A program made the position numbers and the translations under genes. The notes beneath the pieces were generated by a model that did not search any database, was not told the DNA's origin, and saw nothing but the letters and a program-made list of their open reading frames with translations. Of a stretch of DNA of 61,903 bases, positions 181 through 36,825 are shown one piece after another. Origin of the DNA: Deltaproteobacteria bacterium (GTDB lineage Bacteria > Desulfobacterota > Deferrimicrobia > Deferrimicrobiales > Deferrimicrobiaceae); the NCBI GenBank assembly GCA_016220005.1, contig JACRIV010000079.1, positions 1 through 61,903 of the forward strand, read 5' to 3'. Numbering within the stretch: the first letter of the stretch is position 1; each line of letters opens with the position of its first letter.

Positions 181-960
181 TTACCCGTGGACGGCGTGTC
201 CGAACGCCCGCATGAAGACCATCTCCTCGGGGGAAAGCGGCCCCTTGTCGAGCGCCGCCAGGTTCTCGCGCAATTCGGCTGCGCTGCGAGGCCCGGCGAG
301 GACCACGTCCACGTGCGGGTTCGTGAGGCAAAAGCGGTAGCAGTCGCCCGCCGTCGCCACCCTGTCCTTCCAGCCGCGGGGCGCGCGCAGGAGCCGCCGC
401 CAGGCCGTGGCGGTGTAGGCGATCACCGCGGGACGGCGGTCGGCCAGGTGCGGAAAGATCTCCTGCTCCGCTCCCGGATGGGCGGCGTTGTAGCGGATCA
501 TGAGGAGGTCGAGGATCGAGGCCTCGGCGAGTTTCCCCGCCCGCGGCCGGTCGTGGATCGATACCCCCAGCGCGCGGACCTTCCCCTCCTCGCGGAGCTT
601 CAGCATCTCTTCCTGCACCGCGCCGGTGAAGGCCGACATCTTTCCGAGCCAGTAAAGTTGGAAGACGTCGAGGTAGTCGACGCCCAACGTTCGCAGCGCG
701 GATTCCGCGGCTCGACGCACGGCGCCCGGGAAGTAACCGAACAGCGGACCCGCGGAAACCACGTACCGCTCCCGGTCGCGTGCGAGGGCGTCGCGGAGTG
801 CGAGAGTAAGCCCCTTCATCCGCGGGCTCCAGAACACATACTGGATCCGCTCCAACGCCTCGCGGCACCCTGCTTGGTCGAGACCGAAGCTGCCGGAAAG
901 CCCCATCCGGAAGAGCGACCGGCTGAGTTTGGGCACCTCGCGGTACGCGAAGTCGTTCAC
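181..960 (-). CDS. Aldo/keto reductase family protein
   Basis: ORF 181..1422; AKR-like 'LGVDYLDVFQLYW...KVRALGVSIHDR...NPHVDVVLAGPRS'. The upstream part of the ORF overlaps the NmrA remnant, so an internal GTG near 960 is likely; start uncertain. Confidence 0.7.
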   Translation of the reverse strand: MNDFAYREVPKLSRSLFRMGLSGSFGLDQAGCREALERIQYVFWSPRMKGLTLALRDALARDRERYVVSAGPLFGYFPGAVRRAAESALRTLGVDYLDVFQLYWLGKMSAFTGAVQEEMLKLREEGKVRALGVSIHDRPRAGKLAEASILDLLMIRYNAAHPGAEQEIFPHLADRRPAVIAYTATAWRRLLRAPRGWKDRVATAGDCYRFCLTNPHVDVVLAGPRSAAELRENLAALDKGPLSPEEMVFMRAFGHAVHG

Positions 961-1029
961 GGCCCCGTCCGCCGCATACAATTCCTCCAAGAGGTTGAAA
1001 TCTGTTCGATTCCTATTATTGGACAGTTT

Positions 1030-1312
1030 CACCGCCGAGGAGACAAGGATCATCTTCGACCGCGGATCTCCCCTCCTCCCGGGGAATCTTATTTGGAGAA
1101 TCCCAAGGAAAACGGAAGAGGAGGCGCGCAAGGCGATGTCCGGAATGGGGATGTCCCGGAGCGCGGTCGACGCGATGATCGAGATGCAGCGCGGCTTCAA
1201 CGAGGGGAGAATCCGCCCCACGCAGGCACGGAACCCGGAGAACACAACGCCGACGACTCTGGAGGAGTTCGCAAGCACCATCTTCGCCCGCGCGTACCGG
1301 CCCGCGGCGTAG
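1030..1312 (+). pseudogene. C-terminal remnant of NmrA-like NAD(P)-binding protein
   Basis: ARKAMSGMGMSRSAVDAMIEMQRGFNEGRIRPTQARNPENTTPTTLEEFASTIFARAY resembles the NmrA-family C-terminus; no N-terminal Rossmann domain upstream. Confidence 0.5.
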
Positions 1313-1500
1313 TTTCTCCGGACCTGGACCGGTAAAATCCTTTCCCGGGACAACGGCGGGACCGGAGTCGGGATCGCCCGCATGCTGACGTCGGTGCCCC
1401 AGGCCGAATCGGGGGCAACCACGGGGCAATCTAAATTTTATGATGGCGGCAATTCGTCAACCTGGCCAAGTCTGTCCTGATGACAAATAGAGGAGACATT

Positions 1501-1932
1501 ATGGCGCAGCAATCAGTGATCGACGCAGCCAAGGCATCGATTCTTGCCTACGGCGATAAGAACTGGAATGGAGTCAGGGCTTCGGTGTCCCCCGGCGTCC
1601 TCTACGATGAGGTTGCCACCCATCGGAAAATGAACGGCGTAGAACAACTCCTCACTGTCTGGCAGGGTTGGGCCACGGCTTTCCCCGATTCGAAGGCCAC
1701 GTTCCAGAATGCCTTTTCCAGCGGCAACACCGTAGTGCTGGAGGTGACATGGCGCGGCACCCATGGTGGGCCGCTGCAGACGCCCGAGGGTCGGTTCCCG
1801 GCAACCGGCAAGACGATAGAGGTCCCAGCATGTCTGATTATTGAGATCGGAGACGGAAAAGCAAGATCGATGCGCCATTACTTCGATATGGCGACTCTGA
1901 TGCAGCAACTCGGACTTGCGAAGGCTGCCTGA
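1501..1932 (+). CDS. SnoaL-like / ester cyclase family protein
   Basis: 143-aa SnoaL-like protein (FPDSKATFQNAFSSGNTVVLEVTWRGTHGG); AGGAGA SD 5' of ATG at 1501. Confidence 0.7.
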   Translation: MAQQSVIDAAKASILAYGDKNWNGVRASVSPGVLYDEVATHRKMNGVEQLLTVWQGWATAFPDSKATFQNAFSSGNTVVLEVTWRGTHGGPLQTPEGRFPATGKTIEVPACLIIEIGDGKARSMRHYFDMATLMQQLGLAKAA

Positions 1933-2057
1933 GCCGGCAACAGCGGTAAAGTGTACACCACCCCAGTTGACGGCTGAACCCGCCGGTGCCCGCGGGCTAG
2001 CCGTCGGCGGGATCCTGTGGGCACGGCGCTGGGCATATGTCGGGATTTTATATGAGA

Positions 2058-4106: not shown

Positions 4107-5093
4107 TTACCGCCCCGGTTTCCCGCCCCTCCCGGGTGCCTGCACGCCGCCGCCTTTGCGGACCCCCGCCTTGGACGGACGCGGACCGGGCGGGAAGCCC
4201 GGCCCCTTTGACGGTTTCTTCCATTCCGGCTTGGGCTGGCGGGGGCCACGCTGCTCCCCTGACGCCTCTTCCGACACGGCTGGGCGAGGCCGCTTCGCGC
4301 GGGGGACGAATTTCGGCTTGCCCGCATGCGGTTCCCGGGCCGGCGCATCGCGGGGCTCGTGCTCCCTCTGCTTCACGTAGGCATTGAGGTCGCGTACTTC
4401 CTTTCCCGTGAGGTACCTCCACTCGCCCGGCTCCACGCCCGCAAGCGTAAGCGGCCCGATCGCCACCCGGCGCAGCTTCATCACACGGTGCCCGATCGCC
4501 TCGAACATCTTCCGCACCTGGTGGTACCTGCCCTCGGCGATCCGGATGGAGATCCACGACTTCCCTTCCCGTTTCTGCAGGAAGTCGACCTGGGCGGGGT
4601 TGGTCATCACGCCGTCGACCGGCAGGCCCCGGCGCAGGATCTTGAGGCTGGCCGGGGGCGGGGCGCCCATCACCTTCGCGACGTAGGTCTTCTCCACGCC
4701 GAACTTCGGGTGGGTAAGCTTGTACGCCAGCTCTCCGTCGTTGGTCAGGAGCAGCAGGCCGGTCGTGTGGTAGTCCAGCCGCCCCACCGGAAAAACGCGG
4801 GTGGAAAGCTCGCCCACGAGGGAAGCCACCGTCTGCCGGCCCTCCTTGTCTTTCATCGTGGAGACCACGTTGTCGGGCTTGTACGCCATGATGTAGATCT
4901 TCTCTTCCCGCAAGGGGACGAGCGTGTTGCCGTCCAACCGCACCTCGCCCTTCCCCGGGTCGAGGAACGCGCCGGGGTCCAGAATCGGCTGGCCCCCGAC
5001 GGTCACTCTCCCGTGCCGGATCAGCTCGTCGGCCGTGCGGCGGGAAACGCTCGCGCAGAGCGAGATGTACCGGTTGAGCCGCTCATTCAGCAT
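4107..5093 (-). CDS. rluB: Pseudouridine synthase, RluB/RsuA family
   Basis: S4 domain then FPVGRLDYHTTGLLLLTNDG; long basic C-terminal tail. Confidence 0.88.
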   Translation of the reverse strand: MLNERLNRYISLCASVSRRTADELIRHGRVTVGGQPILDPGAFLDPGKGEVRLDGNTLVPLREEKIYIMAYKPDNVVSTMKDKEGRQTVASLVGELSTRVFPVGRLDYHTTGLLLLTNDGELAYKLTHPKFGVEKTYVAKVMGAPPPASLKILRRGLPVDGVMTNPAQVDFLQKREGKSWISIRIAEGRYHQVRKMFEAIGHRVMKLRRVAIGPLTLAGVEPGEWRYLTGKEVRDLNAYVKQREHEPRDAPAREPHAGKPKFVPRAKRPRPAVSEEASGEQRGPRQPKPEWKKPSKGPGFPPGPRPSKAGVRKGGGVQAPGRGGKPGR

Positions 5094-5985
5094 CCGGCTC
5101 CTCCGCTTGGCTTCCGGACGCGGCGCCTTCCGCCTCCGCTCCCTCCCCCTCCTCCTTGGCGGCCGCCTCGCTCAGAACGACGTCCGAGACCCCTTCCGGC
5201 AGACCGGGCTCCGTCGTGACCAGCGGCTCTCCATGCTCTGCCTCTTCGAGGCTGGCCGCAAGCTCCGAGGTCGAGCGGCGCGGGCCGGCCGGCTGGAAGA
5301 CCGGCTCCGCGGGAGCCTCCGCCACGACGCCCCCGGTCGCCGCGGCGAGGAAGTCCTCGATGTCCCGCATCGACGGGAGGTCGGAGAGGCTGGCCAGTCC
5401 GAAAACCTCGAGGAACTCCCGCGTCGTAGCGAAGAGGAAGGGCTTCCCCGGCACGTCCTTCTTGCCCACGACCTTGACCAGCCGGCGGTCCATCAGCGTC
5501 TTGAGCGCCCCCGCGCAGTCCACGCCGCGGATCTGCTCGATCTCGAGGCGGGTCGCCGGCTGCTTGTAGGCGATGATGGACAGCGTCTCCAGGGCCGCCC
5601 GTGAGAACCGCGGCGGCTTGACGTCGAAGAGCCGGCGCACGTACTCCTGGTTGGCGGGATTGGTGCGAAGCTGCACCCCCTTCGCCACCTCCTCGACCAG
5701 GATCCCGGAAGCGTCCGGCGGGCATTTCGACTGCAGGATGCGGACGACCTCGCGAACCGCCTGCCTGCCGAGCCCGCCCAGGAGCTGGCCGATCTTCTCG
5801 TAGGAGAGCGGCTGGGACGAGACGAGCAGGAGGCTCTCCAGGATCGAGGCGGCGCGGGAGAGATCGGCCTCCTCCGGGGTCGGGGCCGGTTCCTCCTGGA
5901 CGGCAACGCCCACGACCGGGTTGGTGTCGACGGAGTCCGCCGGGGTCTCTTCAGGGGGTGTCGGGTTCTTCGTGTTCTCTTCCAT
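5083..5985 (-). CDS. scpB: SMC-Scp complex subunit ScpB
   Basis: ILESLLLVSSQPLSYEKIGQLL...ALETLSIIAYKQPATRLEIEQIRGVDCAGALKTLMDRRLVKVVGKKDVPGKPFLF. Confidence 0.92.
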   Translation of the reverse strand: MEENTKNPTPPEETPADSVDTNPVVGVAVQEEPAPTPEEADLSRAASILESLLLVSSQPLSYEKIGQLLGGLGRQAVREVVRILQSKCPPDASGILVEEVAKGVQLRTNPANQEYVRRLFDVKPPRFSRAALETLSIIAYKQPATRLEIEQIRGVDCAGALKTLMDRRLVKVVGKKDVPGKPFLFATTREFLEVFGLASLSDLPSMRDIEDFLAAATGGVVAEAPAEPVFQPAGPRRSTSELAASLEEAEHGEPLVTTEPGLPEGVSDVVLSEAAAKEEGEGAEAEGAASGSQAEEPDAE

Positions 5986-23239: not shown

Positions 23240-23522
23240 CCTTCCGCCCGCTCCCGTCCCGCGTTTTCGGGGGGAACAGCTCCCGAAAGAAGTATCCGCC
23301 GACGCAGCCTCCCGCTCCTCCCGCAAGGAGAAAAAGGAACAGGAGAAGGTCCCCCCGGTCGGTGTTGATATACGGCTCCCGCGGAGGACGCCCCGCCTCC
23401 TCGGCGAACTTCGCCACCACCGTTTTGTCCACGCCCTCCCACTGGCCGCCGGGACCCGCGACCGCAAAGACGAGGACCGTCGCCAGGGAAACGACCGCTC
23501 CGGCCACGGCCACCCGCCTCAT
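23232..23522 (-). CDS. Small membrane protein between cbiM and cbiQ, probable CbiN/PDGLE-like auxiliary component
   Basis: Two hydrophobic segments, operon position with overlapping neighbours. Confidence 0.6.
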   Translation of the reverse strand: MRRVAVAGAVVSLATVLVFAVAGPGGQWEGVDKTVVAKFAEEAGRPPREPYINTDRGDLLLFLFLLAGGAGGCVGGYFFRELFPPKTRDGSGRKDG

Positions 23523-24262
23523 GGCGCCCATCCTTCCGCCGGGAGCTCCAGCAGCTCGGGGCGGCGCGTCCGGATGAATCGGTATGCCCCCGCCGCAAGG
23601 AATCCCTCGAAGACCCCCAAGGGAACCTGCGTCGGGACGAACGCGGCAAGGATCATCCGAAACAGGGCCGCGATGGAGCCGCCCCCGGCCAGCGCCGCGG
23701 AGAGCGAAAACGAGGTAGCAGCGTAAGTGCCCCAATCCGAGAGCAGGCCCGCGAGGAAAGCGGCAACGGGCCACGGCGCTCTAACCTTCCGCGCAAGGAG
23801 AAACGCGCCGTATCCGAGATAGCCGCCTACCACCCCCATGGACACGATGTTCGCGCCGAGGGTCGACAGCCCCCCGTGGGCCAGGAACAACGCCTGCAGC
23901 AGGAGCGCCACGCTGGTCACGATGACGGCCTGCCCGGGGCCGATGAGGATCGCCGCCAGGCCCGTGCCGCACGGGTGGGAACAGGTCCCCGCCGTGGGAA
24001 CCGGAATCGGCATGCACGAGACGACGAACACGCCCGCCCCCACCAGTCCCACCAGCGTCTTGAAATGGGGAGCCCGCCCGGCGCGAATCCGCAGGTCGCG
24101 CATTCCGAGGACGAGGAACGGCGCGGCCACGAGGAACCAGAACCCGGCCCACCCCGGCGGGAGGATCCCCTCGGAGATGTGCATCCCGTAGGCACGTCCC
24201 GGAAGCAAGGCAAGGGCGACGATCCACAGAACGTACGCCGCTTTTTCCCATCGAACCGTCAT
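23519..24262 (-). CDS. cbiM: Cobalt ECF transporter S component CbiM
   Basis: MHISEGILPPGWAGFWFLVAAPFL; GTCSHPCGTGLAAILIGPGQAV. Confidence 0.93.
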   Translation of the reverse strand: MTVRWEKAAYVLWIVALALLPGRAYGMHISEGILPPGWAGFWFLVAAPFLVLGMRDLRIRAGRAPHFKTLVGLVGAGVFVVSCMPIPVPTAGTCSHPCGTGLAAILIGPGQAVIVTSVALLLQALFLAHGGLSTLGANIVSMGVVGGYLGYGAFLLARKVRAPWPVAAFLAGLLSDWGTYAATSFSLSAALAGGGSIAALFRMILAAFVPTQVPLGVFEGFLAAGAYRFIRTRRPELLELPAEGWAP

Positions 24263-24750
24263 TTCCGCCCTCCCCTGTCCTGATGGCCGGGGTCTTCCGG
24301 CCCCGAAGCGGACCGCTCCCGACCCCGCGGCATCATTTCGCGCACGTCGCGAAGGCTCAAGGACTCCGTCGCACGTTTCTCCACAAGGTCGACGAGGGAT
24401 TCGTCGTAGCCCAGGTTCTTGCCGAGAATCATCGTCACGTCCGGGTATCCTCGGACCTTTTCCCGCAACATCCCGGGGATGTCCTCCAGGAGGTGTTGCC
24501 CCTCATGGAGGAAATAGGGGATGACCACGACCTTTCCCGCCCTCACCGTGGCGCACTTCTCCAGAGCCTCGGACAGGGAGGGCTTCTGAAGCGACATGTG
24601 GCAAACCTCCACGAGGATGTACTTCCCCCTTTCCCTGAGCCTGGCGGCCACCTGTTCCATGGCTTTCCCGGCCCCCGGCAAGCGGCTCCCGTGGCCAAGG
24701 AGGATGACGGCTTCTCCGCTGAATTTGTTGCCCGTCGTGTCCCGGTCCAT
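24259..24750 (-). CDS. cbiX: Sirohydrochlorin cobaltochelatase, CbiX type
   Basis: AVILLGHGSRLPGAGKAMEQVA...VVVIPYFLHEGQHLLEDIP. Confidence 0.9.
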   Translation of the reverse strand: MDRDTTGNKFSGEAVILLGHGSRLPGAGKAMEQVAARLRERGKYILVEVCHMSLQKPSLSEALEKCATVRAGKVVVIPYFLHEGQHLLEDIPGMLREKVRGYPDVTMILGKNLGYDESLVDLVEKRATESLSLRDVREMMPRGRERSASGPEDPGHQDRGGRK

Positions 24751-24756
24751 TCCGGG

Positions 24757-26187
24757 TCACCGCCCCTGGCTTCTTTCCGGCGTGCCGATCTCGATAGCGG
24801 TCGACATCCCGGTGTCCCAGCCGTCCCACAGGTACGCGCCTTCCTTGCCGTCGGCGATAAGCCGCAGTGCATATCGGACCTGCTCCTCGTACAGTTCGCA
24901 GAAAGCGCCGGGGCGGCGCATGCCTCCGTTCATCTCGTGCGCTTCGGCAGGACAGGGAGATCCGCAGAAATGTCGCACCGCACACCGGGAACAAGGTTCG
25001 ATGTCTTCCACCTTTCGTTGCGTCACTTTCCTGAAAGCCTGACTTTCGAGCGCCCTCGGAATCTCGTCCCTGAAGAGATTTCCGCCCTTGAACTCGCGGA
25101 ACCCGATGAACTCGCTGCAAGGGAAAAGATCCCCACGGGCGGATACCGCGAAGAAATACCGCCCGCCCCCGCAGGGCGAGATATCGCACATGAGCCGTCT
25201 TGCCGCGGGCGCAACGATGCTCACGAGCACATTGGCGAAGTTCGCGACCACCAGCTTTCGGCCACTCTCCCCGTACAATTCATACGAGCGATCGAGCGCC
25301 GCGAGATAGGGCACGGCAAGCTCCTTGTCCCGGGGCTTGAGGAAGCGGGCGCCCTGGCGGGTGCAACGAAGGGGGTTGAGCATGCACGCAGGAACTTCCT
25401 GTTCATGCAGGAACTCCACCATCCGGGGAAGCGAGCGCATGTTCCTGCTCGTCACGGTGCAGAGGACGTTGTAGTCCGGGTATCCCTTCAGTTTCTCCAG
25501 GGCGCCGGCCACGATCCTGAACGTTCCCTCCCCACCCCACGTTTTTCTCGTGCGATCCGCGACCTTGTCCAGGTGCCCGTCCAGCGACAGGCCGATGCCG
25601 ACCTTGCGCGAGGCCAGGAACCCGATCGCCTCGTCGTCCAACAGCGTGCCGTTGGTCTGCACGCCGAAGCGGAAATCGTCCCGGTATTCCTCGATCCCGG
25701 CGAAGACGGCGTCGCGGCAGAGCATCGGTTCCGAGCCGTGGAAGACGATCTGCGGCCGCGTTCCTCGGGGGAAATGCTTTTCGAAGTATGCTTTCAGTAT
25801 CCCGAGGGCCTCGATCAGCCTGGCCCGGGACATGCGCTTGCCCTCCCGGCGCATCTTTTCCGGGATGTAACAATAGGGGCAGTTGAGGTTGCAGCGTTCC
25901 GTGGGGTTGAAATAGACCGCCATCGGGTTCACTTCGAACCGGAGCTTCTCCATTTCCGACAGGAATGCGGCCCTTTTCCTGCGATATTGCGAAAAGAGGG
26001 AGCCGTCGGTGAGCGCTTCCCCGAGCTTCCTCTTCTTCACGAGAGACCAGAAAGCCGTATCGGGGTCCAGCAGGGCGATATAGTCCGGGTGCCCGATGTC
26101 GATCGGCTGTATCGTGGGCCCCTTACCCGTGTTGAAATAAATCCCTCGCGATGGTGTCTCGTTGCTCCCTTTTTTCAGGTCCGCCAC
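24757..26187 (-). CDS. cbpB: Peptide-modifying radical SAM/SPASM enzyme, CbpB-like
   Basis: CNLNCPYC radical SAM motif; SPASM-type cysteines CDISPCGG...CSEF...CSRCAVRHFCGSPC; next to a tiny conserved-looking ORF in a B12 cluster. Confidence 0.85.
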   Translation of the reverse strand: MADLKKGSNETPSRGIYFNTGKGPTIQPIDIGHPDYIALLDPDTAFWSLVKKRKLGEALTDGSLFSQYRRKRAAFLSEMEKLRFEVNPMAVYFNPTERCNLNCPYCYIPEKMRREGKRMSRARLIEALGILKAYFEKHFPRGTRPQIVFHGSEPMLCRDAVFAGIEEYRDDFRFGVQTNGTLLDDEAIGFLASRKVGIGLSLDGHLDKVADRTRKTWGGEGTFRIVAGALEKLKGYPDYNVLCTVTSRNMRSLPRMVEFLHEQEVPACMLNPLRCTRQGARFLKPRDKELAVPYLAALDRSYELYGESGRKLVVANFANVLVSIVAPAARRLMCDISPCGGGRYFFAVSARGDLFPCSEFIGFREFKGGNLFRDEIPRALESQAFRKVTQRKVEDIEPCSRCAVRHFCGSPCPAEAHEMNGGMRRPGAFCELYEEQVRYALRLIADGKEGAYLWDGWDTGMSTAIEIGTPERSQGR

Positions 26188-26225
26188 GATCGTCTCCTTG
26201 TTTCCTGTGGTCTCCCGCAGGTCGT

Positions 26226-26259
26226 GCGGGACCCCCGGCGACAGGACCGGGCGTCCCGC
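26226..26259 (-). promoter_or_regulatory. Strong intercistronic hairpin between cbpA and cbpB
   Basis: GCGGGACgCCCGG tcctgtcg CCGGGgGTCCCGC, no T-tract. Confidence 0.6.
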
Positions 26260-26268
26260 TCCGAACTC

Positions 26269-26376
26269 CTACCTGCTCTTCCCTTTCATGAAAAGGAAAT
26301 GGGACAGGCCGGTGCCAATGACCTTGCAGGTCTTGCGGTAAGCGATCACTGCCCTTGTCGTCTTGCTTTTCTTCAC
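26269..26376 (-). CDS. cbpA: RiPP-like precursor peptide CbpA, 35 aa (GTG start), absent from the ORF track
   Basis: Translation MKKSKTTRAVIAYRKTCKVIGTGLSHFLFMKGKSR*; SD CGAAAGGAGGTGATACCC-GTG; directly upstream of the radical SAM gene. Confidence 0.9.
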   Translation of the reverse strand: MKKSKTTRAVIAYRKTCKVIGTGLSHFLFMKGKSR

Positions 26377-26412: not shown

Positions 26413-27096
26413 CTATTCCGATCTCCGAGCAGCCGCGGAACAGAGGGCATGAAGCGCGCTCACGGCCATGGGACTGCCGCCTCGCCGTCCGGAAACGGCG
26501 ACGAAAGACATTCCCAGGGACATCAGCTCCTGCTTGCTTTCCTCCACATGCACGAAGCCCACCGGCATGGCGATCACGAAGGCCGGCCGGATCCCTTCTT
26601 CGATGACAAGGCGGTTGAGCTCCAGCAGGGCGACCGGGGCGTTGCCGATCAACGCTATTCCTCCGTCGAGGGTCGCCCTGGCCTTGCGGACGGCGAAAAG
26701 GGAGCGCGGCAGGCCGCTTTCGACGGACTGCCGCGCCACGTCCTCGTCCGCCACATGACACACGATGCTGTCGCGGCCGTACGTCGGGCATGCCTCCCGC
26801 AGGCGATTCAGGGAAAGTCCGGCCCGAATCATGTTGGAGTCCGCATAAAGCGGGCGTCCGGCGCGAAGCGCCGCAGCCCCTGCTTCCACCGCATCCGGAG
26901 AAAATCTGACGTATTCCAACAGCCCGAAATCCGCGGTGGCATGAATCATTCGGCGGACCACCTGCCACTGGGCGGGTGCAAATCGGTGTGAGGGGACTTC
27001 CCTTTCGATTCTCTCGAGCGAGAGGGCCTCGATGGCCTCTCCGGTCAGCGGAGAAGCATAGAGCGACAGGATGAGGGGCGGGGCGTCACTCGCCAT
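26413..27096 (-). CDS. cbiC: Precorrin-8X methylmutase
   Basis: MIHATADFGLLEYVRFSPDAV...YADSNMIRAGL...GNAPVALLEL...AMPVGFVHVEESK. Confidence 0.93.
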   Translation of the reverse strand: MASDAPPLILSLYASPLTGEAIEALSLERIEREVPSHRFAPAQWQVVRRMIHATADFGLLEYVRFSPDAVEAGAAALRAGRPLYADSNMIRAGLSLNRLREACPTYGRDSIVCHVADEDVARQSVESGLPRSLFAVRKARATLDGGIALIGNAPVALLELNRLVIEEGIRPAFVIAMPVGFVHVEESKQELMSLGMSFVAVSGRRGGSPMAVSALHALCSAAARRSE

Positions 27097-28480
27097 GGTT
27101 TTGCTCGCAAAGCGAAAGAAAGCTCTCCACGGAACGCGGATGGGATCCGAAATGAACGTGAACATAGCTCGCCAGCGTCCGGCTTCGCCCATATCCCTCC
27201 GGAATCACGGCCTCCGACCGCCGGTGCCTGATACGATAGACAGCCCTCCACGCGGGATCCGCGAACGGATCGCCGGTCAAGTCGGAGTAATGGAACTCAT
27301 GCCCGCGAAGGATCGTACCGGGGGGACCCAGGAGCGTATTCTCCGACAGGTTGATCTCGGCATACCCCAGCCTCTTCGGACGGTTGAGCATACGGGTCCA
27401 CGACGGCAGCAGCCCGACGAAGCCGTGACGCGCACCGTCCCGGGTCTCGATCCCTTCCGCCAGGTACATCAATCCGCCGCACTCGGCGTATACCGGACGG
27501 CCACTCTCCGCGAAACGCTTCACCGCCTCTATCATGTGCCGGTTCCTCGAGAGCGTCTCCGCATGTTCTTCCGGGTATCCTCCGCCGATATACAGCCCGT
27601 CGAGTTTTTCCGGCAGGCGCTCGTCCCTTATCGGGGAGAACCGGACCAGTTCGCCCCCGCCCGCTTCAAGCGCCTCCAGGTTGTCGGGATAATAGAAATG
27701 AAACGCCTCGTCCCAGGCCACCCCGATCCGCACCCGCCTCTTGCGTCCCGGGGGATTGCCGGATGCGCAAACGCGTCGGACCTTGGCCACGCCGTGCGCC
27801 AGCTTCATCACCGCCTCCAACGAAACATGCCTCTCCAGAACGTCTGAGAACGCTCCAAGGAGTTCCGGCGTCAACGTCCCGGGATCCGCAGGGGCCAGGC
27901 CCAGGTGCCGGCTTCGCAAGGCGGGAAAAGCACCCCGGGAGATCCTGCCGAGAAGCGGCGGCAAGGACGATCCCCGGAGGGATTCGGCCAGCCAGGCAGC
28001 GTGCCGGTCCGATCCGCACCGGTTTGCGACAACGCCGGCCACTCTTACGCCGCGCTCGAATCCGGTAAACCCCTTCACCGTCGCGGCCACGCTGCGGGAC
28101 ATGCCGCCGGCGTCGACCACCAGCAGCACCGGAGCGGAAAGCCACCGAGCGATCTCGGCGGTGCTCCCTTCGGAGGAAACGGGGTCAGCCCCATCGAAAA
28201 GACCCATCACCCCTTCGACGATCGCCACGTCCGCCCCGGCAACGGCGCGGGCGAAAAGCGCGTGCACGTACGCTTCCCCGGTCATCCAGCCATCGAGGTT
28301 GTAGCAGGGCCTCCCTGAGGCCAAGGCCAGGTAGGAAGGGTCCAGGAAGTCGGGCCCCACCTTGAAGGTCTGCACCCGGAGCCCACGCCGTTTCAGGGAG
28401 GCAGCAAGGGCGAGGGAAAGGGAGGTCTTCCCGACCCCGCTGCCGGTACCCGCAATGACGACGGTGGGACACGACGCCAT
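27086..28480 (-). CDS. cbiA: Cobyrinate a,c-diamide synthase
   Basis: VVIAGTGSGVGKTSLSLALAASLKRRGLRVQTFKVGPDFLDPSYL; GGGYPEEHAETLSRN; YAECGGLMYL. Confidence 0.94.
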   Translation of the reverse strand: MASCPTVVIAGTGSGVGKTSLSLALAASLKRRGLRVQTFKVGPDFLDPSYLALASGRPCYNLDGWMTGEAYVHALFARAVAGADVAIVEGVMGLFDGADPVSSEGSTAEIARWLSAPVLLVVDAGGMSRSVAATVKGFTGFERGVRVAGVVANRCGSDRHAAWLAESLRGSSLPPLLGRISRGAFPALRSRHLGLAPADPGTLTPELLGAFSDVLERHVSLEAVMKLAHGVAKVRRVCASGNPPGRKRRVRIGVAWDEAFHFYYPDNLEALEAGGGELVRFSPIRDERLPEKLDGLYIGGGYPEEHAETLSRNRHMIEAVKRFAESGRPVYAECGGLMYLAEGIETRDGARHGFVGLLPSWTRMLNRPKRLGYAEINLSENTLLGPPGTILRGHEFHYSDLTGDPFADPAWRAVYRIRHRRSEAVIPEGYGRSRTLASYVHVHFGSHPRSVESFLSLCEQNHGE

Positions 28481-28496
28481 CACAATTCCACCCCTT

Positions 28497-29471
28497 TCAT
28501 GCCACACCTCCTCCTTGCCCCCACCAGGCGCCGATCAGGAACCTCGCACCGAGGAAAAAGGCCACCGCAAGGCCCGAGACGGCCAGCGCCAGCGCATTCG
28601 CCTGCCTGATGTGATGGGGATCCGGAGGTACGGCGGAATCCCCCAGCAGCGGCTTCATCGAGGGTCGCCCGTCGTAGTAATTCAGGCCGCCCAGCTGCAC
28701 GCCGAGGGCCCCCGCCACGGCCGCCTCCGTATGCCCCGAGTTGGGGCTGGGATGCTTGTGCCGATCGCGAAGGAAGATGCGCAGGGAATCGGAAGCCTTA
28801 AAGCCCAGGAAAAATGCGGCGACGGGCACCAGGAGTCCCGTCACCCTGGCGGGAAGGAAGTTGGCCGCGTCGTCCGCGCGGGCGGAGATCCGGCCAAAGG
28901 CGATATAGCGCTCGTTCCGGTAGCCGAAGAGGGAGTCGAGCGTATTCACCGCGCGGTAGGTCACGGCTCCCAGAGGCCCGAACAGGACGGCGTAAAAGAG
29001 GGGGGCCGTGATCCCGTCGACGATATTCTCCGCCACGCTTTCCACCGCGGCGCGAACGACCCCCGGCTCCTCGAGCCGATCCGTGTCGCGTCCGACGATC
29101 CTGGCCACCTTCTTCCGCGCTTCTGCAAGGTCCCCCTTCTCCAACGCCCGGTACACATGGGCGCCGTGCCCGACCAGGTCTCTCGCAGCGAGGCAGAAAT
29201 AGAGGAGCAGGATGGAGATCCCGTCCGCGGCCGATGGGTTCAGCCAGCGGGTACAACGGATGAGGGCGAAGGCGGCAAGGAACGTCGAAAGCAGCACGGC
29301 GGAGAACACGGCGATCCCCGCCGCCTCGGGATCCTTCAGCGATCGCCGGAAGGGCATTTCCAGGGACGCAGCGAAGCGCCCGATCCCTCGGACAGGGTGT
29401 GGAAGCCACCGGGGGTCCCCCAGCGCCATGTCCAGGGCGATGGCGGAAAGGATCTGATATTCCAGCCTCAC
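28497..29471 (-). CDS. cbiB: Adenosylcobinamide-phosphate synthase
   Basis: [44 protein letters not shown]. Confidence 0.93.
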
Positions 29472-32044
29472 GAAAGCCCCATCGCCCGGTAGATCTCCTT
29501 GATCCGCACGTTTTGCCGGACGGTTGCGGCCAGGCGCTCCAGGGCGGGCTCCAGGTCGTACTTCCCGAGTATTTTTCCAAGGGGGGAAAGGTCGCGCCTT
29601 TGTCTCAGTCGGTCGATGAACCATCGACGGAACGCATCCGCATCGAAGATCCCGTGCATATAGGTGCCCCATATGCGCCCGTCGGATGAGGACGCGCCTT
29701 CGTTCTCTCCGTCCTCCCGGCGCAGGACCGGAGCCATCCCTTCGGACCGGGTCCTGCCGTGGTGGATCTCGTAGCCATGCACGATGACACCCGACGCAAT
29801 GTGCAGCCCCTTCGTGCGGGCGAGGATCTTCCCGCTTTGCATCGCCGTGCACACCGGGAGGAGCGAGAGACCCTTCACGGGCCCGCCCGCGGACTCGACG
29901 CGGTCCGGGTCGGCGATCGTTTCCCCCATCATCTGGAAGCCGCCGCAGATCCCCACCACTTCCGTTCCGCCCCCCGCCGCCAGGGAGGCGATCTTCCGGT
30001 CCAGTCCCTGCCTCCGCAGGTACTCGAGGTCGCCGGACACGTTCCTGCTCCCCGGGAGGATCACGGCATCCGGCCGCCCGAGGTCTTCCGGAGAACGCAC
30101 GATGCGCACGCGGACATCCGGTTCGACACGGAAGGGGTCGACGTCCGTGAAATTCGAAATGTGGGGCAGGTCGACCACGGCGATTTCCACCTCCCCCGCG
30201 GAAAGAGGGAAAACTTCGCTTACGGCAGCCTTGAAGGCCACGGAGTCTTCCTCCGGCAGTCCCAGACCGTGCAGATAGGGGACCACTCCCAGCACGGGAC
30301 GTCCCGTGTAACGCATGAGGTGATCCAGGGCATCCTCCAACAGCCCCGCCTTCCCGCGGAACCGGTTGACGATGTATCCGGCCACCAGGGACCGTTCCCA
30401 TTCGGACAGCGTCTCCATCGTTCCGACGAAGGAGGCGAACACGCCACCCCGGTCGATGTCGCCGACGAGCAGGACTTTTGCCTCCGCATGGCGGGCCATC
30501 TTCATGTTGACGATGTCGTGCCGTTTCAGGTTGATTTCCGCCGGACTCCCCGCCCCCTCCAACACGATGACATCGAACTCGCGCGCAAGAGAGTCGTACG
30601 CCTCCCTTGCCGTCTCGAAGGCCTTAGGCTTGTACCGGGTGTACCCCTCGACGTCCATGTTCCCGACCGGCTTTCCGCCGACGATCACCTGCGCGCCGGT
30701 GTCGCTGTTGGGCTTGAGCAGGACGGGGTTCATGCCCACGTCCGGCTCGATCCGGCACGCCTGCGCCTGGAGAACCTGGGCCCGTCCCATCTCGCCGCCC
30801 TTCGTTGTCACGAATGAATTGAGCGACATGTTCTGCGCCTTGAAAGGCGCCACCCGGTAGCCGTCCTGGAGCAGGATGCGGCACAGCGCGGCGGCGAGGA
30901 CGCTCTTGCCGGCGCCGGAAGAGGTTCCCTGGACCATGACGGCAGGCGTCCGGCGGCGGCGTTGGAGAACTTTTCCGGGCGCGCCGAGGGCGTTCCGGAG
31001 CCTCTCGCACAAGCGGCCGTTTTCCTCTTCCGTGCGTACGGCGACGCGCAAGAAACGGGCATCCAGCCCGGCGAAGTCGTCGCACGTCCGGATGGCGATC
31101 CCGTCCTGCAGCATCCGCCGCGCCAGCGCGGGCGCATCGATGGTCTTTCGGTCGATCCGCGCAAGCAGGAAGTTCGCTTTTCCCGGATAAACGAAAAGCC
31201 CGGGGATCGACCGGAGATCGCCCGCGAGCCGTTCCCGCTGCAGCCCAACGTACTCCCGCGAGCGCGCCACGTATTCCTCGTCCCGCAACGCCGCGACGCC
31301 GACGGCCTGGGCGACCGTGTTGACCGACCAGGGGGGCTGCAACGCCCGGATCCGGGCGATGAGATCGGAGTCGCCGACGGCGCAGCCGAGCCGCAAGCCC
31401 GGGATGGCGAACGTCTTGGTCAACGAGAGCAGGACGACGACGTTGGAGGGGCGATTCTTCGTCAGCCGATCCATCCCTTCGACGAAATCGGCGAACGCCT
31501 CGTCCACGACGAATGTCGTGGACGGATGGGACGCGGCGAGGGAACGGATCGCCTCCGCGTCGCAGAGCAGCCCGGTCGGATTGTTCGGGCAGCCGATGAA
31601 GACCGGCTCTCCCCCTTCGAGCCTTGCGCCGAGCGCCCGGACGTCCAGGGCGAACCCGTCTTCCTCTCTCATCGGAATCGACGCGACGGCAAGCCCCGCC
31701 GAACGCGCGGCGACCGCGTAATCGACATACGCCGGCTCCGGGATGACGGCGCGGGAAGCGCCGCATGCCCGCGCCAGGAGAAACAGGATCTCGGACGTTC
31801 CGTTTCCGGCGACAACCTCGTCCTTCGATGCGCCGTAGCGGGATGCCGCCGCCTCGACAAGGGCCGAACAGTCCGGGTCCGGGTAATGGGCGACGGACCC
31901 GATGGTCGCGCTTACCAGCGGGCGCAGCCATTCCGGAGGCCCCAGCGGGTTGATGTTTGCGGAGAAATCCAGTATCTCCCCCGGCGGCCGTCCGGTCACG
32001 GCCGCCAGCCTCCGAAGATTTCCCCCGTGTCCGTCTTTCCTCAC
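29468..32044 (-). CDS. Fusion: threonine-phosphate decarboxylase (CobD-type) + cobyric acid synthase (CobQ/CbiP)
   Basis: N-half PLP enzyme ([27 protein letters not shown]); C-half [42 protein letters not shown]. Confidence 0.92.
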
Positions 32045-36617: not shown

Positions 36618-36792
36618 AAAGCTCCACGTTGGCGTGAGCAGGTCTTCTGGCTTCCGGATCAGCCTACTCGCCGCGCCTTCCCGTCCTTGCGGACAGTGAC
36701 ACGTTTGCGGCTTTGGTCCCCGGTTACAGCGGCGGGCCCGCGACGGATTCTCACCGTCTTCCCTTGATGCCCTTTCGGGCTACCCACGCAGG
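36618..36792 (-). promoter_or_regulatory. Cobalamin riboswitch (AdoCbl class)
   Basis: Minus strand GGGAAGACGGTGAGAATCCGTCGCGGGCCCGCCGCTGTAACCGGGG...GCCAGAAGACCTGC, canonical B12-box elements. Confidence 0.92.
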
Positions 36793-36797
36793 CCGAC

Positions 36798-36825
36798 GTT
36801 ACAACAATTCCAGACAGGATGTAAA
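36798..36825 (-). promoter_or_regulatory. Candidate sigma70-type promoter of the B12 operon
   Basis: TTTACA - 16 nt - TGTAAC on minus strand just 5' of the riboswitch. Confidence 0.3.

Follow-up and report, generated by a model that had tools for sequence, protein, structure and literature searches.

The two genes that we describe here, a 35-aa precursor peptide gene (cbpA) and the radical SAM/SPASM maturase gene directly downstream of it (cbpB), belong by profile and motif to a family that has a name in NCBIfam, of which they are a divergent representative. Based on their distribution and genomic context, we propose that cbpAB encodes a RiPP system repressed by B12 and that its modified peptide serves corrinoid uptake, trafficking or late assembly, a reading that we hold tentatively and place somewhat short of an even chance. 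The prevalence of cobalamin riboswitches, the existence of stand-alone units and the retention of the pair in salvage-type genomes narrow the question to post-ring corrinoid handling at low B12. If the proposal is true, B12 metabolism employs a modified peptide that is missing from every textbook pathway.

Identification of the cbpAB pair

The window, by which we mean the whole analysed stretch of 61,903 nt, carries the following features, given from upstream to downstream along the minus strand.

36620-36802, minus strand: cobalamin riboswitch (RF00174, 105.8 bits), at the head of a same-strand B12 gene run
26413-27192, minus strand: cbiC, upstream neighbour (PF02570, E 1.2e-62)
26269-26376, minus strand: cbpA, 35-aa precursor peptide (HMM TIGR04164, conservation, SD)
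26188-26268, minus strand: cbpA-cbpB spacer, 81 nt, GC-rich (fold -43.4 kcal/mol, z -1.9; no T run)
24757-26187, minus strand: cbpB, radical SAM/SPASM peptide maturase, 476 aa (TIGR04163; Pfam Radical_SAM and SPASM; alignment; fold)
24259-24750, minus strand: cbiX-type chelatase, downstream neighbour (PF01903, E 1.3e-25)
23519-24262, minus strand: cbiM, cobalt ECF transporter S component (PF01891, E 4e-51)

The cbpA frame starts with GTG, stops at TAG and translates as VKKSKTTRAVIAYRKTCKVIGTGLSHFLFMKGKSR. Its SD sequence, AAAGGAGGTGA, ends 5 nt from the GTG and agrees with the SD consensus used in 11/11 letters, which bears out the original prediction of a 35-aa frame with a strong SD between cbiC and a radical SAM gene. 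The short peptide gene lies directly 5' of the maturase gene on the same strand, and the pair stands in a cobalamin gene context, between cbiC and cbiX. In HMM searches CbpB scores 709.7 bits against TIGR04163 (E 1.1e-213), well past the curated cut-off of 375 bits, and contains the Pfam domains PF04055 and PF13186. CbpA matches 24 of the 25 profile positions of TIGR04164 with 34.3 bits (E 1.2e-8), 0.7 bits below the curated cut-off of 35 bits, and was assigned to the family by CbpB, adjacency and motif instead of by score. The cut-off rather than the peptide is at fault, because 15 of the 24 CbpA genes found beside CbpB in a sample of the window's own phylum also miss it and nine pass. Spacing variants such as CKPNGDQVGLSHY would come within reach of a broader TIGR04164 model. 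The window pair resembles the NCBIfam families in peptide, maturase, cbpA-cbpB order and B12 gene neighbourhood. The CbpA/CbpB identity given in the original prediction is confirmed by HMM search. The accompanying label 'unannotated' suits the window peptide, which stays under the cut-off, but not the system as a whole, given that the families were already defined and that cbpA and cbpB carry RefSeq annotations in other genomes.

The maturase likewise has the predicted CNLNCPYC motif and SPASM-like cysteines. In an alignment of 62 sequences 11 CbpB cysteines are invariant, namely the radical SAM triad (99, 103 and 106) and eight in the SPASM region (334, 339, 357, 399, 402, 408, 412 and 430). 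The spacer keeps cbpA and cbpB in one frame, which makes a read-through fusion model possible; its fold and the promoter- and terminator-like signals were set aside as too weak to serve as evidence.

The NCBIfam short names cobo_pep and rSAM_cobopep suggest that the curators were aware of the cobalamin link. The searchable open literature, family names included, reports no product or function for CbpA/CbpB, and no paper on radical SAM peptides with cobalamin riboswitches was found in the literature searched. This analysis adds riboswitch statistics, salvage-only occurrence, a tandem precursor and a docking prediction, the priority of which is judged only within that literature.

Conservation and distribution of the family

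A CbpB scan of 85,462 species genomes returned 443 relatives, 80 of which were fetched, and a further sample comprised 297 genomes of the window's phylum with 26 CbpB carriers. Using a profile started from the window peptide, CbpA was located next to CbpB at ~99 loci across many phyla, that is, beside practically every CbpB. Among loci with usable upstream sequence just one CbpB is without it. The scanned loci that gave no CbpA match are two, L110, whose contig starts just before cbpB, and L029, which encodes a deep-branch CbpB (630-2003, plus strand; above the cut-off and ~41% identical to the window enzyme) and has neither CbpA nor a cobalamin riboswitch in the 630 nt upstream. In the phylum sample CbpA is restricted to CbpB-bearing genomes (24/26 vs 0/271; Fisher p 2e-33). 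Across 74 distinct sequences the 20-residue core has a mean pS of 0.75 against a pN of 0.17, a clear sign of selection at the codon level. The ~99 loci, the excess of pS over pN and the confinement of CbpA to CbpB genomes lift the 35-aa frame beyond chance. No CbpB relative was found in viral contigs.

CbpA has a median length of 36 aa, and nearly all loci fall within 29-49 aa; the outliers are one of 55 aa, possibly with a wrong start, and one of 69 aa. The latter (L105, a Neptunomonas MAG; 1139-1354, plus strand) holds two complete units in tandem, and each unit therefore has its own recognition part. The N-terminus is Lys-rich and is followed by the usual pattern V-I-A-x-R-K-x-C-x(5-7)-G-L-S-H-Y-I-L, in which the Cys, a Gly and the G-L-[S/A]-H-[Y/F] stretch are invariant and the Arg at -3 from the Cys is unvaried in every complete row. 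The aromatic residue after the His is Tyr in 96%; the window, L036 and L057 have the rare Phe, the window reading SHF-LFM where SHY-ILM is usual. No solved structure resembling the CbpA sequence was found.

Cobalamin control and genomic context

A same-strand cobalamin riboswitch whose 3' end lies 112-349 nt ahead of the codon for the CbpA Cys is present at 71/91 scanned loci, or ~68/87 when four locus pairs that are apparently the same genome twice are allowed for. The B12 control that had been foreseen for the window therefore finds strong support across the family. In the window itself no riboswitch adjoins cbpA, and because the nearest one lies ~10 kb upstream in the same-strand gene run, we only infer that it controls the gene. 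Among the 20 riboswitch-less loci, recognised B12 biosynthesis genes are wanting only at L039, L091 and L096, and the rest lie mostly inside cob/cbi operons. Many riboswitch-cbpA-cbpB units stand alone, with no B12 gene detected on the fetched stretch by queries that were the window's own B12 proteins and that transport genes such as btuB would escape. Within B12 operons the gene 3' of cbpAB varies (cbiX, cbiM, cbiC, cobT, cobD, cbiB, cbiP, cobC or DUF71), and a search among neighbour clusters yielded no constant partner. On a quick CbpB tree built mainly from MAGs the context label requires 18 changes, and the rows nearest to the window enzyme belong to Verrucomicrobiota, Chloroflexota and Poribacteria. 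From these sequences cbpAB looks like a mobile two-gene cassette that may have been transferred and repeatedly put under B12 control. A copy annotated as cbpA-cbpB (L112; NZ_CP073765, 131035-152372) resides on a 278-kb plasmid of the cultured Methylovirgula sp. HY1, where it adjoins pqqADE and a further, TIGR04463-related SPASM maturase; the 21 kb analysed contain no riboswitch, and B12 genes are absent within 10 kb.

Is the pair tied to the synthesis of the corrin ring? In the phylum sample CbiC occurs in 24/26 CbpB carriers, CobT in 25/26 carriers vs 184/271 non-carriers (Fisher p 0.001), and one or the other in 26/26. A separate test covered twelve cbpAB genomes picked mostly for salvage-type operons. 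CbiC is missing in nine of them, and CbiD in all nine, so the known pathway would not yield a corrin ring in these genomes; they are mostly MAGs, which may be incomplete, together with one single-contig finished chromosome, CP070837 (L068). There the genes run cobU-cobT-cobS-cbiB-cobD-AsnB-like-cbpA-cbpB-DUF71-BtuF-like-FecCD permease-ATPase, and a TonB receptor gene lies farther along. At seven of the nine ring-deficient loci cbpAB is found among btuFCD-type transport and/or cobU-cobT-cobS-cbiB-cobD genes, several of these also having an adenosyltransferase, a TonB receptor and DUF71-B12; an adenosyltransferase gene comes after the ATPase in L055 and L056. L104 and L109 have the arrangement cobC-cobU-cobT-cobS-cobD-cbiP-cbiB instead. 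Because cbpAB is kept without CbiC and CbiD, a role limited to cobalt insertion or ring methylation does not fit. The cobalt handling suggested in the original prediction is disfavoured on this ground, and a role in cobalt chelation was downgraded.

Predicted docking and candidate chemistry

Fold searches rank CteB (5WHY, E 1e-20) as the best match of CbpB, followed by the anaerobic sulfatase maturase, ChlB and SuiB, and a PDB profile search returns the same order (CteB 3e-37, then sulfatase maturase and ChlB). The SCIFF/CteA-CteB ranthipeptide system (5WGG, 5WHY) shares with cbpAB the fold and a short Cys-containing precursor. The SCIFF precursor has six Cys whereas CbpA has one conserved Cys, CteB has an open AuxI site where CbpB has eight SPASM Cys, and B12 control is a trait of cbpAB only. 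The closest other NCBIfam model is that of the PapB-type ranthipeptide maturases (NF047865), which CbpB matches with 134 bits, far under the cut-off of 340; CbpA is without the C-x-x-x-D motif. The anaerobic sulfatase maturase (4K37, TIGR03942; fold match E 2e-17) has, like CbpB, a full auxiliary-cluster Cys set, but the CbpB substrate is a short peptide. The eight invariant SPASM-region Cys suggest that both auxiliary clusters of CbpB are fully ligated, as in the anaerobic sulfatase maturase, SuiB and PqqE and unlike the thioether enzyme CteB, in which the AuxI site is open (PMC6231123).

To model docking, the window TAG was read as Gln, and the resulting CbpA-linker-CbpB chain, with an artificial linker, was predicted in one AlphaFold2 run from 62 sequences. 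The fusion model has a pLDDT of 87.7, with ~89 for a CbpA strand from Arg8 to Cys17 and an average of 70 for residues 21-30. In CbpB alone the C-terminal tail (461-470), which has an alternating T-T-F-x-I pattern, is a coil of pLDDT 70 falling to 33, and the AuxI loop (335-339) stays <50; in the fusion the tail forms a strand at ~90 and the AuxI loop block rises to 72-77. Because tail and loop become ordered only when CbpA is present, CbpA 8-17 may pair as a strand with the tail, and the core may contact the AuxI side. In CteB the leader is also bound as a strand, on the RRE (PMC6231123), whereas in the model the CbpA strand is apparently paired with the tail. CbpA might be divided into a recognition strand (Arg8-Cys17) and a candidate core (Cys17-Met30).

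The reaction site of CbpB is probably Cys17, because this residue is invariant and Cys is the target of the closest maturase families, with thioethers formed by PapB and the SCIFF maturases and formylglycine by the anaerobic sulfatase maturase. Conservation is consistent with the modification at Cys17 or in the GLSHFLFMK segment that had been envisaged from the sequence. CbpB might instead oxidise Cys17 to formylglycine, as the anaerobic sulfatase maturase does, with no linking. That enzyme is the second-best structural and family match and likewise has eight SPASM Cys, and the CbpB position opposite its Asp277, the residue after the AuxI Cys which we take to be catalytic, is adjoined by an invariant Glu359. 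The position itself, however, is Ser358, CbpA is without the sulfatase C-x-P-S-R motif, and among NCBIfam models the closer one is that of PapB, which makes thioethers. With Asp277 replaced in the alignment and no sulfatase motif in CbpA, a Cys17 thioether is the likeliest chemistry, ahead of formylglycine, which we regard as improbable.

A proposed role for the modified peptide in corrinoid handling

How might a modified peptide act in B12 metabolism? We propose that B12 scarcity would relieve riboswitch repression and allow cbpAB to be expressed. CbpB would hold CbpA through strand pairing with Arg8-Cys17 and carry out an oxidative radical SAM reaction at Cys17, most likely yielding a thioether with a residue farther along, in the G-x-G-L-S-H segment. 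Once modified, the peptide would remain intracellular and aid corrinoid acquisition, trafficking or late, post-ring assembly while B12 is scarce. The job of cbpAB is probably B12 handling and not ring building, since even B12 scavengers keep the pair under B12 control. An intracellular helper in corrinoid handling is favoured because the module is B12-repressed, ring synthesis is dispensable, the association is with uptake, salvage and late assembly, no signal peptide was seen in CbpA, and the neighbour clusters show no exporter, protease or receptor that recurs. Against this proposal stand the eight SPASM Cys, which suffice for two fully ligated clusters, unlike CteB; the Methylovirgula plasmid copy with no riboswitch or nearby B12 gene; the want of a constant partner gene that would point to the B12 step served; and the derivation of the predicted docking from a single fusion prediction, in which 62 sequences were used and the linker was artificial. 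One concrete form would be a small corrinoid carrier with the invariant His, possibly the Cys, as axial ligand. We speculate that CbpA could be a ribosomal, cross-linked peptide whose His, perhaps together with the Cys, ligates the cobalt in incomplete corrinoids, standing in for the lower ligand during uptake and late assembly. Such a carrier, which we consider quite improbable in this specific form, would be to corrins what methanobactin is to copper, but would act inside the cell.

The small size of the peptide and the stand-alone riboswitch-cbpA-cbpB units with no partner gene could befit a regulator or signal of B12 status that is neither cofactor nor carrier, and SCIFF-derived peptides have been tied to quorum sensing in clostridia, according to work cited in PMC8326336. 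We think a signal unlikely, given the missing signal peptide and export, processing or receptor genes mentioned above and the high conservation of the core from phylum to phylum, which strain-specific signals do not show. The late-pathway association, the invariant His and aromatic residue and the plasmid copy beside pqqADE would also accord with a redox cofactor or its precursor, similar to PQQ or mycofactocin, used for example in cob(II)rrinoid reduction before adenosylation or by an enzyme that takes the place of a B12-dependent one; the pair, however, is not linked to a dehydrogenase, a protease or an additional maturation gene, and the Tyr is replaceable by Phe, as in the window, which renders this reading rather unlikely. 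The same substitution, in the window, L036 and L057, led us to drop a lower-ligand precursor role in which the Tyr would give a phenolic ligand. Least probable, and in our judgement quite improbable, is that the peptide serves cobalt, either as a carrier or as a partner of the chelatase and ECF transporter for corrin-ring synthesis: cbpAB does adjoin cbiX and cbiM in the window and at several other loci, but most loci are not beside either gene, and nine cbpAB genomes have neither CbiC nor CbiD.

Neighbouring genes

In Omnitrophota-type salvage operons an AsnB-like PP-loop gene precedes cbpA. At L107 the AsnB-like protein (4656-5711, plus strand), which has a zinc-ribbon-like C-terminus, is in frame with CbpA with no intervening stop, possibly a fusion or an assembly error. 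DUF71 lies directly 3' of cbpB at L056 (4571-5038), L055 (4950-5624), L068 (7511-8176) and L078 (2876-3538), and the last three contain a DUF71-B12-like G-E-x-G-E-Y-H motif. This motif fits the signature of the DUF71-B12 group, for which a role in pseudo-B12 salvage has been predicted (PMC3541065). DUF71-B12 appears as a neighbour directly after cbpB in one lineage group, the Omnitrophota-type salvage operons, outside cbpAB itself. In the window no CbiT, which would account for the decarboxylating step, is recognisable in an otherwise full cbi operon (16174-36627, minus strand), and none exceeds the cut-off in the whole genome, which is 91% complete. In the same operon CobD (threonine-phosphate decarboxylase) and CbiP are apparently fused in an 858-aa frame (29468-32044, minus strand), and similar long fusions occur at L043, L045, L060, L062, L065 and other loci.
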